Source: Mya arenaria (lineage: Eukaryota; Mollusca; Bivalvia; Myida; Myidae). From it: 64,000 nucleotides of DNA. Each line of letters opens with the position of its first letter. The first letter of the stretch is position 1. Where the stretch lies: contig NC_069125.1 in assembly GCF_026914265.1 (NCBI RefSeq), forward strand, positions 22,618,966 to 22,682,965, written 5' to 3'. The notes under the pieces are model-generated. The model was not told the origin of the DNA and did no database searches. It was given only the letters and a program-made list of their open reading frames with translations. Position numbers and translations under genes: made by a program. Positions 1,607 to 63,143 of the stretch are shown in pieces.

Positions 1607-2293
1607 ATGTCTCCCCCTCTCTGGGGGAGACATATTGTTTTTGCCCTGTCCGTCAGTCCGGTAGTCCGTCAGTCCGTCCGTACGTCACACTTCGTTTCCG
1701 ATCGATAACTGGAAAACCGCATGACCTAGGATCACCAAACTTGGTAGGGAGGTTGGTCGTGAGGTGTAGAGGATCCCTATTGTTTTTGGGGTCACTAGGT
1801 CAAAGGTCAAGGTCGCGGCGACCCCCAATATAAAAAACATTTCTGCTCAAAATCTTGAGAACGGTTTGACCTAGGTTCACCAAACTTGGTAGGGAGGTTG
1901 GTCATGAGGTGTAGAAGATCCCTATTGTTTTTGGGGTCACTAGGTCAAAGGTCAAGGTCGCGGGGACCCCCAATGTAAAAAACATTTCCGCTCAATATCT
2001 TGAGAATGGTTTGACCTAGGTTCACCAAACTTGGTAGGGAGGTTGATCATGAGGTTTAGAAAACTCCTATATTTTGGGGGGTCACAAGGTCAAAGGTCAA
2101 CGTCGCTGTGACCTCTAATGTAAAAAAATATTTCCGTGCAATATCAGGAGAATGCTTTGATCTAGGTTCACCAAACTTTGAAGTGAGGTTGGTCATGATG
2201 TCTAGATGATCCCAATTGTTTTGGGGGTAACAAGGTCAATAGTCAAGGTCGTGGTGACCTTCCATGTAAAAATTATTTGCGTGTAATATCTTT
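1607..2293 (+). mobile_element. Hairpin-headed minisatellite element, GTCTCCCC family, truncated
   Basis: The head is a hairpin, ATGTCTCCCCCTCTCTGGGG followed by the complementary GAGACAT, then a GTCC/GTCAG-rich tetranucleotide tract. The body has about four units of roughly 125-145 bp ('ttgacctaggttcaccaaacttggtagggaggttggtcatgagg'), each containing AGGTCAAAGGTCAAGGTC. It has no tail: a second head of the same family begins at 2294. Confidence 0.7.
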
Positions 2294-61200: not shown

Positions 61201-63143
61201 CCTTTGTTATTTTTTCTTGTCCGGAGCATAACTAGAAAACTATTTGATGGAATTAAATATAACTTCATACAGTGATATATCATAATGAGAGAAAATGCAG
61301 TGTACAGGAACCGCAATTCTATTTCAGCCAATTACACAAAGTTACTGCCCTTTGTGACTTTTTTCTTGTCCGGAGCATAACTTGAAAACTACCGGATAGA
61401 ATGTAATAAAACTTTATACAATGTTACAGTACAATGAGATGGAGTTCAGTGTACATGAATCATTACACTATTTTAGCAAATTACAGAGTTATTGCCTTTT
61501 TCTGTGTGTTTTTTGTCAAACTTTTGTCCGGACAGTAACTTGAAAACTACTAGTTGGAATTTCATAAAACTTCATACAATGATAAATCATAATGAGAGGC
61601 GGCGTTCAGGGGTATTAATCACCTTTAGTGATAGCTCTAGTTGCATCTTTCTTTAGAATTAAGATGAGTGTTTTAGTATAACCCCATACTAAATCGTTTT
61701 TTCTGTTTAGCTTCTACAGATGGAAAGGTTTTAGGCTTCCAGATCCGTGATATGATCAACGATCTTGCTGAATATTTTTTGTTTCCTTTAACTATAATTC
61801 TGACTACAATACAAAAGTATTTAAAACCTGCTTCATACTTTGTATTAGTATTCTTGGCATTATCAGAAAATGATGCATTCTGTGTGATTCCCATGACCAA
61901 CCACTTAAATACAAGTTTTAACTGAACTCATTTTGCTGTGGAAATCTATCTAACAATTGAGAATGGTTAAGAATGGACTTCGGAGGCTCTGGTGTCTAAA
62001 TTGTACATAGGATGTCACTTATTTAGTATTCCTTTTCTTTTCAGGGGTTAGTTTGTTTTTATCAGGATAGCTTCATAGGTTTCCATAAAGGATTGACGCT
62101 AAACATCAAAACAATTTGGTATGGCCAAATTGAATGATGTACCTATATACATGACTTCTGTGTAAGCTTGTTGAATCTCATTTCTAATCAGTCATCATAA
62201 TGAAACCATACACTGGTTTCTCACTTTGGTAACTGTTGTGTTTTGGTGCATTTCAGTTTGTTGTATAAATCATTGTATGATTGATGATTTAGCAATATTT
62301 ACAATGTTTGGAAGGGAAAATGATCAGTTTTGTACACATTTTTGCTTACAGTTTAGTATGTCCCAAGTTTATTAACATCTCTTGCAAACTTTCATTTCTT
62401 ACCATTTACCATATAAATGTATATAAAATATAAATGCATTTGAGCATACCCAATTGTATACATCTTACTATACCCAACCCCTCACATGTTTACCATTGTT
62501 GCAGTCATAGTTTTGTTTGGCTGTTTTTTGGCAGCAGTATGCAAAAACTTGAATGTGGACAAGATGTACCCGGTACAGGTTAACGAATGCCTACATTTAT
62601 GTGTAGAGGTCTCTCACAATGGCTAAAATATTTCAAGATTTATGCCACCTGATCTACTGGGAAAAATAGACAAGTGTTAGCCTTACATTTCGTGCTTGGA
62701 CATGAAATATACATGTGTAGTTTCTGCTGCCACATATGTTAGAGTCTGTCAACCACAAAACACACCCTTGGTTTATATAAAATTATCTGGATTTGATTTA
62801 AGTTCACTGCCACTATATCAAGGTAACTCCATTATATTTTCTTTAGGAACACAGGAAAACGTACTACCGTATTTAAAGAAAATAATCACTTGGTTACATA
62901 GGCAAAGTTATGATAATGACATGACTGTGAAATAGGAGTATTCAAAACACTATACAATATATACAGGTGACGCAGGGAGGACAGACCCAGTGCATTAGCG
63001 GTTTCCTAGGTTTGGACGTTCCACCACCGGCCGGGCCATTATGGATTCTGGGGGATGTTTTCATTGGACAGTTCTACACAGAGTTTGACCAAGCAAACAA
63101 CAGGCTAGGATTTGCTACTGCTGTACAGCCTTCCAGTTTATAA
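46201..63143 (+). CDS. CTSD: Cathepsin D-like lysosomal aspartic protease
   Basis: A pepsin-family (A1) acid endoprotease, expected in lysosomes. Exons with GT-AG borders and matching phases: 46201-46277, 49003-49144, 49676-49799, 50292-50410, 50893-51092, 52411-52533, 54242-54383, 54864-54962, then either 57566-57826 or 62967-63143. Products are 428 or 400 residues. Visible parts: signal peptide (1 to about 22), propeptide ([13 protein letters not shown]...), first active site [12 protein letters not shown] (Asp94), flap Tyr139 in QYGSGS, N-glycosylation sites NGT (131) and NVT in [10 protein letters not shown] as in vertebrate cathepsin D, second active site [12 protein letters not shown] (Asp280), and Cys pairs typical of the family. 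No proline-rich loop for two-chain processing is seen, so a single-chain enzyme is likely. A decayed copy of exon 7 lies at 53607-53699. Confidence 0.92.
47640..48640 (-). mobile_element. CR1-like LINE reverse-transcriptase fragment, decayed
   Basis: Minus-strand frames give, in order, [19 protein letters not shown] then SEEPEEV (compare the LINE motif VPQGSVLGPLLFLIYINDLP), [16 protein letters not shown], later [18 protein letters not shown], and finally [21 protein letters not shown]. This order and these motifs are typical of CR1/Jockey-type RT palm to C-terminus. Several frameshifts and a lost catalytic box show it is long dead. It lies in cathepsin D intron 1. Confidence 0.7.
49003..49144 (+). 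CDS. CTSD: Cathepsin D exon 2: propeptide
   Basis: The acceptor is TTTGCGTTTCAG. It encodes [19 protein letters not shown] and [20 protein letters not shown], the basic activation segment and start of the mature chain. The donor is GAT|GTAAGT, phase 0. Other overlapping frames here are shadows. Confidence 0.9.
49676..49799 (+). CDS. CTSD: Cathepsin D exon 3: first active site
   Basis: It encodes [20 protein letters not shown] then [20 protein letters not shown]. The catalytic Asp is in DTGSS. The donor is T|GTAAGG, phase 1. Confidence 0.95.
50292..50410 (+). CDS. CTSD: Cathepsin D exon 4: flap
   Basis: The acceptor is TTTGCCTTCAG. It encodes [20 protein letters not shown] and [20 protein letters not shown], including the substrate-binding flap Tyr and the first N-glycosylation sequon. 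It leaves in phase 0 at GTGAGT. Confidence 0.95.
50893..51092 (+). CDS. CTSD: Cathepsin D exon 5
   Basis: It encodes [20 protein letters not shown] then [15 protein letters not shown] and [11 protein letters not shown], the end of the N-lobe and the interdomain segment (FDGILGMGY and FSFWL are family hallmarks). The donor is AG|GTTGGT, phase 2. Confidence 0.95.
51226..52035. mobile_element. MITE-like inverted repeat in cathepsin D intron 5
   Basis: The left arm (CATTAAAATCAGATC ... GATCTGAG ... GGTCACCTCA) is matched by a complementary right arm (TGAGGTGACC ... CTCAGATCG ... GATTTTAATGAG), about 120 bp each, imperfect, around a unique centre. No transposase. The frame at 51341-51535 is not an exon. 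Confidence 0.6.
52411..52533 (+). CDS. CTSD: Cathepsin D exon 6
   Basis: The acceptor is TTGGTCACATTTCAG. It encodes [20 protein letters not shown] then [20 protein letters not shown]. The NVT sequon matches the second glycosylation site of cathepsin D. It leaves in phase 2. Confidence 0.95.
53607..53699 (+). pseudogene. Decayed duplicate of cathepsin D exon 7
   Basis: After an intact acceptor (TTAATTCCAG), the frame continuous with exon 6 reads [20 protein letters not shown] then [11 protein letters not shown] and a stop. About 13 of the first 24 residues match [20 protein letters not shown] of the real exon 7. The catalytic Asp is replaced by Lys and the partner Cys is lost; the stop replaces the rest of the exon. 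AATAAA follows at 53789-53794, so use as a truncating terminal exon cannot be excluded. Confidence 0.75.
54242..54383 (+). CDS. CTSD: Cathepsin D exon 7: second active site
   Basis: It encodes [20 protein letters not shown] then [20 protein letters not shown] and TPIVGGE, with catalytic Asp280 in ADTGTS. The donor is GAG|GTAGGG, phase 0. This is the functional counterpart of the decayed copy 640 bp upstream. Confidence 0.95.
54864..54962 (+). CDS. CTSD: Cathepsin D exon 8
   Basis: The acceptor is TGTATCATTTCAG. It encodes [20 protein letters not shown] then [13 protein letters not shown]. The Cys should pair with the CISGF Cys of either terminal exon. It leaves in phase 0, compatible with both. 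Confidence 0.95.
55798..56563 (+). mobile_element. Hairpin-headed minisatellite element, GGTGAGCT family
   Basis: The head AGCTCACCTTAGCC / GGCTGAGGGTGAGCT is followed by GTCCGTCGTCTGTCC. About four units of roughly 145 bp follow ('tcatctggggtcaaaaactaggtcacagagcccaaatatgg'), and the tail GGGCCATCTTGGCCCTCTTG-TT. It lies in cathepsin D intron 8. Confidence 0.8.
56573..57303 (+). mobile_element. Hairpin-headed minisatellite element, ACCAGGTTT family
   Basis: The head palindrome ACCAGGTTTTCAC / GTGAAACCTGGT is followed by about four units ('gggttgacatattgcaaccaaacttagta..aagagtttatagagacc') with AGGGTCAAGGTCACTG. It ends GAAAACCTGGTTTTGTTGCT..GTTTCTTGTTT. It is in the same intron; isolated units of this family lie at 885-1605. 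Confidence 0.75.
57566..57826 (+). CDS. CTSD: Cathepsin D terminal exon 9a
   Basis: The acceptor is TTTCCTACACAG. It encodes [20 protein letters not shown] then [20 protein letters not shown] and [20 protein letters not shown], continuing to ..VSVTFY and TAG. The C-lobe core is complete, but 28-30 residues extend past the usual end and add two Asn-X-Ser/Thr sequons. No AATAAA was noticed in the 300 bp that follow. It is intact and in phase with exon 8. Confidence 0.85.
58131..59950 (+). mobile_element. ATGCCCCCC-family minisatellite element, copy 2
   Basis: It is homologous over its whole length to 9073-11031, with the same head, GTCGGTCGGTC tract, eleven-unit array, 3' unique part and tail. 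Just before the tail it has a run of 22 G where copy 1 has 7. It lies between the two cathepsin D terminal exons. Confidence 0.85.
60241..61642 (+). mobile_element. ATACCCCC-family minisatellite element
   Basis: The head hairpin ATACCCCCGACAAACAAAG..GGGGGTAT is followed by GGTCGGTCGGTTGGTCGG. About nine units of roughly 147 bp follow ('ttgtccggagcataacttgaaaactattggatggaatttattaaaacttcatacaatg'), and the tail GGGGTATTAATCACC..AGCTCTAGTT. Head and tail match those of 5256-6631, but the body is unrelated. It lies between exons 9a and 9b. Confidence 0.8.
61643..62966. other. Intronic interval without a recognised feature
   Basis: AT-rich sequence before exon 9b. The 79-codon frame at 62696-62935 has no similarity to protease exons and ends before the 9b acceptor. 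No remnants of other cathepsin exons were seen. Confidence 0.4.
62967..63143 (+). CDS. CTSD: Cathepsin D terminal exon 9b
   Basis: The acceptor is CAATATATACAG. It encodes [20 protein letters not shown] then [20 protein letters not shown] and [18 protein letters not shown], then TAA. This is the canonical length and ending for cathepsin D (NRLGFA). About 37 of the first 51 residues match exon 9a. AATAAA follows 19 bp after the stop. Phase 0 fits exon 8 directly. Confidence 0.88.

Follow-up and report, generated by a model that had tools for sequence, protein, structure and literature searches.

Minisatellite elements in a 64-kb stretch of the Mya arenaria genome: probable non-autonomous Helentrons with a resident tandem array

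Introduction

Non-autonomous elements with internal tandem repeats are known from bivalves; Pearl, for example, has central repeats of ~160 bp. The oyster elements described as non-autonomous Helentrons (HINEs) could not be related to autonomous Helentrons, several of their families were read as independent, and two conserved unit segments were found to be common to CL4 and CL1, 2, 10 and 13 (PMC7492417). Another oyster study detected no autonomous elements and inferred inactivity (PMC7992393). Captured tandem repeats, and the same array type in different elements, are treated in a 2025 review (PMC12628747), and Helitron-borne arrays are described in PMC8268682 and PMC11136912. Plant tandem Helitron arrays consist of several 5′ ends and one 3′ end (Xiong 2016, as described in PMC12628747). 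All sources cited in this text were available in part, and statements about them refer to the available parts. Here, these systems are compared with hairpin-headed minisatellite elements in a window of 64,000 nucleotides of Mya arenaria (assembly GCF_026914265.1, contig NC_069125.1; C4:22618966-22682965).

The window is this whole stretch. All coordinates refer to it, and the element borders are our own, several of them approximate. Genome-wide matches were sought in the 1.216-Gb assembly of 18 contigs, the best 40 candidate matches being scored per query. The window elements are very probably HINEs with a resident array, to which we assign a probability of roughly 0.85, judging from their sequences.

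Terminal structure of the elements

The ends match the plan of HINEs and Helentrons, with a head hairpin, a complementary 3′ subterminal inverted repeat (subTIR) and a palindrome near the end. The tail repeats the head stem of the same element (3′ arm) in inverted form and continues with a second hairpin and then YTCTWGTT. Pairing between heads and tails was measured in 12 pairs, ten from the window together with those of Hel009 and Hel034 described below. The longest exact complements between own heads and tails sum to 116, and permuted pairs give a mean of 65.9 and a maximum of 101, with none of 20,000 permutations reaching 116. Families G, H, K and Q (letters as in the list below) stand outside this test, their tails being either not found or recognised later. 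All 12 tails have a perfect stem of 5-7 bp that stops 6-11 nt short of the end; in 1,000 letter shuffles, stems of at least 5 bp occur on average in 0.5 and at most in 3 of the 12. The head hairpins, each formed by a 5′ subTIR and an adjacent complementary inverted repeat, were judged by eye at 14 forward heads. Assignment to canonical Helitrons (5′ TC, 3′ CTRR, A/T insertion) was rejected, the ends here being TATG/TAGC... and YTCTWGTT, with insertion in a T-run.

By their end letters, some of the families fall into an AGCTC group (C, G, I, J, K, L, P) or a ATACCCCC group (D, M), with H and Q apart. Two tails stand alone. One lies at 57384-57423 (TCGAGCGCCCTGTC...GACAGCTCTTGTT), and no matching head was recognised nearby; the other, at 28390-28428 (GGGGGCAT + GTCACATACTGTGAC + AGCTCTTTAGTT), lies beside an inverted nest of H and B elements.

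Autonomous partners

The sequence-only reading, an earlier interpretation of the window made without database searches, had proposed to look in the genome for Rep-helicase elements with the same ends, and three such elements were found. The search with Helitron_like_N gave 85 match rows, and the 3′ sides were examined at 20 loci over 1.4 to ~14 kb each, many over 2-5 kb (Hel014, Hel034, Hel020 and the C2 twin mentioned below among them). Own tails are present at 3 of the 20 loci, namely Hel014, Hel034 and Hel009. Arrays sit behind the head in each of these autonomous elements, whose pairwise Rep identity is 35-45%.

Hel014 (C6, minus strand) extends over 12.6 kb and has a head, a tract and about three array units at 76-585, followed by the frames (a 1,771-aa Rep-helicase and a 501-aa frame with endonuclease) and the tail. 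Because its second copy, Hel015, matches it at 98.4% over 3,036 bp from just before the head onwards, the head and the array belong to the element. At the 3′ border, all 39 other scored matches among the best 40 stop at query 277-288, the element end being at 277; 30 of the 40 scored rows begin at query 70 and represent a second deletion form. Element F of the window corresponds to the 5′ end of Hel014 at 88-96% (12036-12585) and to its last 85 bp at 100% (12583-12667). By these matches, Hel014 is the parent of F, the 12041 element of the sequence-only reading.

Hel009 (C9) has a head and array of 690 bp, 96% identical to window 1604-2293, and a tail of the matching type (GGGGGAGACAT + GCTTTTCTCAAAAGC + CCATTCTAGTT). 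Two deletion derivatives of it, differing from each other, occur at loci L074 and L075, and Hel009 is the parent of the first part (A) of the element at 1607. The third element, Hel034 (C7), is 11.56 kb long and comprises a head, a GTCG tract, an array from 93 to ~770-950, a 2,422-aa Rep-helicase-endonuclease frame and a tail. Its 3′ border is supported at 3 other places with at least 228 matching bases, and the 5′ borders of Hel034 and Hel014 are confirmed by second copies (L047, L048). Compared with the element at 9073 (E), its head is 83% identical over 81 bp and its tail 88% over 68 bp. Helitron_like_N, PIF1 and Exo_endo_phos are all present in both Hel014 and Hel034, which fit an autonomous Helentron with Rep, PIF1 helicase and apurinic/apyrimidinic (AP)-type endonuclease.

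Derivation by internal deletion is seen for two families, and the deletion joints have 3-5 bp common to both sides (match overlaps). Ends are shared with autonomous elements directly in A and F, through the same stem in B and as a sister in E. Identity among the best 40 rows, the window's own excluded, is 99-100% for the two-headed chimera at 1603-3693, 93-99% for F, 89-97% for D, 87-93% for E and 87-92% for L. The two with a found parent (chimera, F) are the youngest of the five measured, which at this sample size is no more than a hint.

Several sequences on the 3′ sides of Rep loci were considered as partner ends and set aside as separate HINEs or undecided. Hel019 is followed by C-type elements and elements with 145-bp units, Hel025 by a 9073-like array, Hel029 by a J-type element and Hel020, at a distance of 9 kb, by an M-type element; the C12 locus has an L-type tail. 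Its C2 twin remains 99% identical even past this tail, so it is a segmental duplication and uninformative. L013, L016, L019, L024 and L025 form a further Helentron-like clade with 53-68% identity within it and no end assigned. Loci L020, L027, L029 and L037 carry the motif EFQNRGSPH, by which we take them to be canonical-Helitron-like; they too have no end assigned.

Insertion sites

Evidence on insertion covers D (a full empty site), C (one side) and the chimera (seven copies). D is inserted in a C element whose joined flanks are spanned by all of the best 40 scored matches at 97-98% identity. The empty sites read GACAATTTGC-TTTTT-GCTTCTGC in L076 and L077 and GACAATTTG-ATTT-GCTTCTGC in L078; at the filled site, the same five T's precede ATACCCCC, and CTCTAGTT precedes GCTTCTGC. 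The target of D is thus a T-run, without target duplication. Another C element (L022:2094-3399) breaks a T-run inside a Rep gene that belongs to a different Helentron lineage; 3 sister copies are uninterrupted there, and only the 3′ side of the insertion is readable. When frames of at least 180 aa from loci L009-L073 were compared with the window by tblastn, the only 3 match rows all came from this C element interrupting the L022 Rep. Both flanks are available for 7 chimera copies, the window's among them; the longest word common to the two edges has 2-4 letters, with no fixed length or word, boundary shifts being allowed. These sites, full for D and one-sided for C, agree with the insertion of HINEs in T-rich or TT sequence without duplication.

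Layout of the window

The elements recognised in the window are the following; their spans total 24,361 bp, or 38% of the window, several borders being approximate.

1603..3693, + strand: chimera (two-headed HINE); 1603-2293 is head and array A, 2294-3693 the B element
2294-3693, + strand: B element within the chimera; head, 146-bp array, tail
4706..7229, + strand: C element; AGCTCTACTGG head, 169-bp units, decayed tail; interrupted by D
5251..6630, + strand: D element; ATACCCCC head, GTCGG tract, seven 145-bp units, subTIR, hairpin and CTCTAGTT
9075..11031, + strand: E element; ATGCCCCC head, 146-bp units, tail GGGGGGCAT + ATGTTTGACAAACAT + CTCTTGTT
11402..11568, + strand: P element; head, GTC tract and tail, without array
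12036..12667, + strand: F element; internal-deletion derivative of Hel014 (5′ ~550 bp and last 85 bp)
17826..18840, + strand: G element; AGCTCGAC head, 179-bp units, tail decayed or lost; 3′ limit approximate
~19133-20400: older relative of G
21057..21870, + strand: H element; ATGCCCCC head, 181-bp units; tail not found
22516..24586, + strand: I element; TAGCTCCACTGGCC head, 145-bp units, tail GGCCAGTGGAGC, hairpin and CTCTTGTT
28856..29815, - strand: inverted H-type element holding an inverted truncated B-type element (~28985-29550); by eye, borders approximate
30326..32869, - strand: J element; tail at 30326, head at 32848-32869, 166-bp units
33130..35250, - strand: K element; AGCTCACC head at ~35215-35247, GTCC tract, fourteen 145-bp units; no tail seen in this span
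37879..39300, - strand: second C element; tail at 37879, head at ~39265-39296
55787..56563, + strand: L element; AGCTCACC head, 145-bp units, tail GGTGAGC, hairpin and CTCTTGTT
56573..57302, + strand: Q element; ACCAGGTTTTC head hairpin, tail GAAAACCTGGT ... TTTCTTGTT, by eye
58133..59950, + strand: second E element
60236..61642, + strand: M element; ATACCCCC head, GTCGG tract, 146-bp units, subTIR, hairpin and CTCTAGTT

The sequence-only reading had placed hairpin heads after T-runs at 14 forward and five inverted coordinates. All 14 forward coordinates lie at or within ~11 bp of a head, mostly after T-rich sequence (by eye), and the GTCN tract and array described behind the head are present in most elements, the main units found by TRF being 145-181 bp long. 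The CTCTTGTT and CTCTAGTT tails that it named are real. Only one inverted coordinate, 32873, marks a head; 30326 and 37879 are tails, and the other two are neither, 28996 being the 3′ region of an inverted 2294-type element and 28856 lying inside the array of an inverted 21059-type element (both by eye). K was absent from its list, and the element at 5256 sits within the one at 4711, whose decayed tail ends at ~7229. The separate element that it saw at 2294 belongs here to one mobile unit, as the copy borders described next indicate.

Between the HINEs, coding-looking stretches occur at 8584-8690, 12774-14183 and 57566-57826 (by eye). One of them contains a 48-bp repeat at 13421-13880, and one resembles the C-terminal part of an aspartic protease (by eye).

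The two-headed chimera

The unit at 1603-3693 consists of a Hel009-type 5′ end and a B element, amplified together from the outer head to the inner tail. Its first 700 bases are 99-100% identical in all of the best 40 scored places, the window itself included. The 5′ border is common to all 7 fetched copies, and the 3′ border is seen in the 6 that reach it. The 96% match to Hel009 over 690 bp breaks at the second head, where Hel009 reads AATATCTTT-CACATATG and the window AATATCTTT-ATGTCTCCCC; comparison of the two junctions shows that the B element entered the T-run of a Hel009-type element. A unit of this kind would be expected if copying ran from a 5′ start as far as the first 3′ stop.

Tandem arrays and the shared core

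The arrays of different families are related in sequence. Pairwise comparison of 16 array stretches gives 226-313 bits among A, B and E, 272 for K-L, 152 for D-K, 92-118 for D-E and 85 for D-A; scores on the opposite strand never exceed 31, and the maximum over 897 shuffled scores is 32.6. The units begin with a core of ~80 bp (consensus TTGCTTTTCCGGACAATAACTCTAAAACTTTTGGACGAATTTTAATAAAACTTGATACGAATGTT). To examine this, a profile was built from the first 80 bp of the arrays, leaving out the cluster under test, and compared with 200 shuffles per family. On the head strand, the core beats all 200 shuffles in 12 of 14 families. After a strict split, in which A, B, D, E, K and L were wholly separated from C, F, G, H, I, J, M and Q, nine of 14 (C, G, H, I, M, Q, A, D, E) beat every shuffle, and F and K are reached by 1 of 200. 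In the 8 control stretches, the score never rises above that of the shuffles. Matches of at least 8 bits fall within the listed elements in 97 of 98 cases, the profile having been built from these families. The offset from the array start is within ~13 bp in A, C, D, F, H, I, K and L, in the best matches of E and in the weak match of J. Matches to the unit's second half occur in D, K, L, F and Q and, marginally, in B and E. The view of the sequence-only reading that the bodies are unrelated between families is contradicted by the shared core and by the scores across families. Convergence on nucleosome length as the sole cause of the similar unit lengths was rejected, the cores being alike in sequence and place.

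Other repeats lie nearby. An array at 25677-27214 (73/146-bp) shows no HINE ends, and the core profile does not beat shuffles there. A near-perfect tandem duplication of 238 bp (97%) at 16729-17166 is without core. Decayed sequence like I- or J-type units follows just after the C element (7250-8010), with one core match at 7464. Two 29-bp minisatellites with the same unit AGCAGCCTTAAATTTAACCAAACACACC, at 29960-30321 and 35260-35701, lie directly against the J tail and near the K head.

AGGTCA half-sites are frequent in the arrays, with 170 in 15,974 bp (shuffled mean 12.6, maximum 19), as are TCAAGGTCA (42; shuffled mean 0.3) and GGTCAnnnTGACC (24; mean 0.0); the remaining 48,026 bp of the window contain 32, 3 and 4, respectively. 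Arrays rich in AGGTCA are those of A, B, D, E, H, K, L and Q (e.g., 9158-10853 and 33138-35154). We take these to resemble nuclear-receptor sites of the estrogen response element (ERE) and estrogen-related receptor (ERR) types, and HINEs may scatter such sites across the genome.

Proposed mechanism

A Helentron Rep-helicase(-endonuclease) would start at the head, whose stem also pairs with its inverted 3′ copy. Copying would proceed rightwards and stop at the 3′ hairpin and YTCTWGTT, and each end family would answer to its own Helentron lineage. Where elements are nested, copying from the outer head would stop at the inner tail and yield two-headed chimeras like 1603-3693. The tandem array would be the element's own 5′ subterminal region rather than a captured satellite, because autonomous copies have it behind the head and the core that follows the head also opens the array units. 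HINEs would then arise by loss of the coding middle, with head, array and tail kept.

The rolling-circle, non-autonomous nature proposed in the sequence-only reading agrees with the ends common to Rep/helicase elements, two of them with endonuclease, and with the duplication-free empty site. It had also named differing boundaries between families as a sign against a common mechanism: the end letters do differ, and head-tail pairing is kept nevertheless, which suggests that several machineries of the same kind are involved. At least three Helentron lineages would, on sequence grounds, serve the families of the window.

Several points weigh against the reading as HINEs with a resident array. In the coding part of Hel009, the sequence read covers the Rep. 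Hel034 is a sister, not the parent, of E (9073/58131), and in three further copies of the Hel034 type the match across the 3′ end is confined to the first 125 of 371 bases. No assignable own tail was obtained at 17 of the 20 loci on the 3′ sides read, where the AGCTC group, the ATACCCCC group, H and Q found no partner. The founder locus of the chimera was sought and is not among the best 40 scored matches. The core test was failed by B (16/200 shuffles) and J (4/200), and under the strict split by L (4/200), J (49/200) and B (105/200). The main core matches are out of phase in G and Q (14-30 bp) and mostly in M (16-32, two at 1-2), relative to an array start placed by eye where the GTCN tract ends. 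In the second half of the unit, A, C, G, J and M gave no match, and H and I none above shuffles.

Alternative explanations

The sequence-only reading traced all families to one machinery. Such a single Helentron, moving every family and tolerating very different end letters, would account for the common plan, the common YTCTWGTT end and the shared core, and in the chimera a Hel009-type head works with a B tail, both having the same stem. It is nevertheless improbable: the three Helentrons, with Reps as divergent as reported above, each have an end family of their own, several families are without a partner found, and parents were found only for the two youngest of the five families measured. 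Cut-and-paste miniature inverted-repeat transposable elements (MITEs) or foldback elements are suggested by the resemblance of the hairpin head to a terminal inverted repeat. The ends are asymmetric, the empty site of D is without target duplication, no fixed-length duplication surrounds the 7 chimera copies and Rep/helicase partners exist, so that this explanation has almost no probability left; with no inverted repeats flush with the ends plus target duplication, it was rejected.

Two further explanations concern the arrays. Independent capture of satellites by each HINE family, as in the filler-DNA model suggested for oysters, is discussed in PMC7492417 and PMC12628747. It would suit the second half of the unit, which is not common to most families, and the main unit lengths, which vary from 145 to 181 bp. 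Capture is still very unlikely, given that 12 of the 14 families have the core on the head strand, at nearly the same phase behind the head, that autonomous copies already possess the array and that body scores among A, B and E and for K-L lie far above the shuffled maximum. Exchange of arrays between families by recombination or template switching, the core spreading rather than being inherited per lineage, is unlikely to a lesser degree. D and K share their 152 bits despite ATACCCCC and AGCTCACC ends, and K-L reaches 272; nested and chimeric elements exist, and the available part of PMC12628747 mentions the same array type in different oyster Helitron elements. The core, however, is retained at its position behind the head, and comparisons between the most divergent families give weak scores, without a patch of high identity. 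Returning to a resident array, we tentatively suggest that the ~80-bp core may be an ancient cis-acting module of Helentron 5′ ends (an iteron binding Rep or a host factor, or a promoter), kept across lineages with such divergent Reps, and that bivalve satellites may repeatedly have been born from this transposon control region; this is a possibility somewhat short of an even chance.

Comparison with known systems

The window elements resemble Cg_HINE of Crassostrea gigas (Vojvoda Zeljko et al. 2020, PMC7492417) in the 5′ subTIR with complementary inverted repeat, the mostly 4-nt microsatellite, the mostly 140-180-bp units in one orientation, the 3′ subTIR and palindrome, and T-rich insertion without duplication. 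They differ from it, as far as the available text of that paper goes, in the three partners, the array inside autonomous elements and the core linking most families. Pearl/CvE, MgE and DTC84, bivalve non-autonomous elements named in the same paper, are likened to them by description.

The Helentron/HINE pairs of mite, mosquito and Drosophila DINE-1 (Thomas et al. 2014, PMC4067079) are similar in that HINEs are deletion derivatives of Rep-helicase-endonuclease elements, with subTIRs, a 3′ palindrome, TT insertion and tandem repeats in some copies; the ends and hosts differ, and the part of that paper available mentions no array core across lineages. Like plant tandem Helitrons (PMC12628747), 1603-3693 has two 5′ ends and one 3′ end. 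Unlike them, its second head is a different element in the T-run of the first, and nesting therefore explains it better than a plant-type tandem array.

The oyster studies left the mover of HINEs open (PMC7492417, PMC7992393, available parts), and here near-identical young bursts and long-frame Helentrons with the same ends occur in one genome. A resident array makes the origin of satellites testable, since Helentrons would amplify their own 5′ end rather than acquire satellites. In the literature covered, to which subscription journals and Repbase reports do not belong, titles and abstract openings mention neither a shared array core nor partners of bivalve HINEs. The elements are of a kind known from oysters; new relative to the accessible literature are the matched autonomous partners and the inherited or exchanged array core of the Helentron 5′ end.

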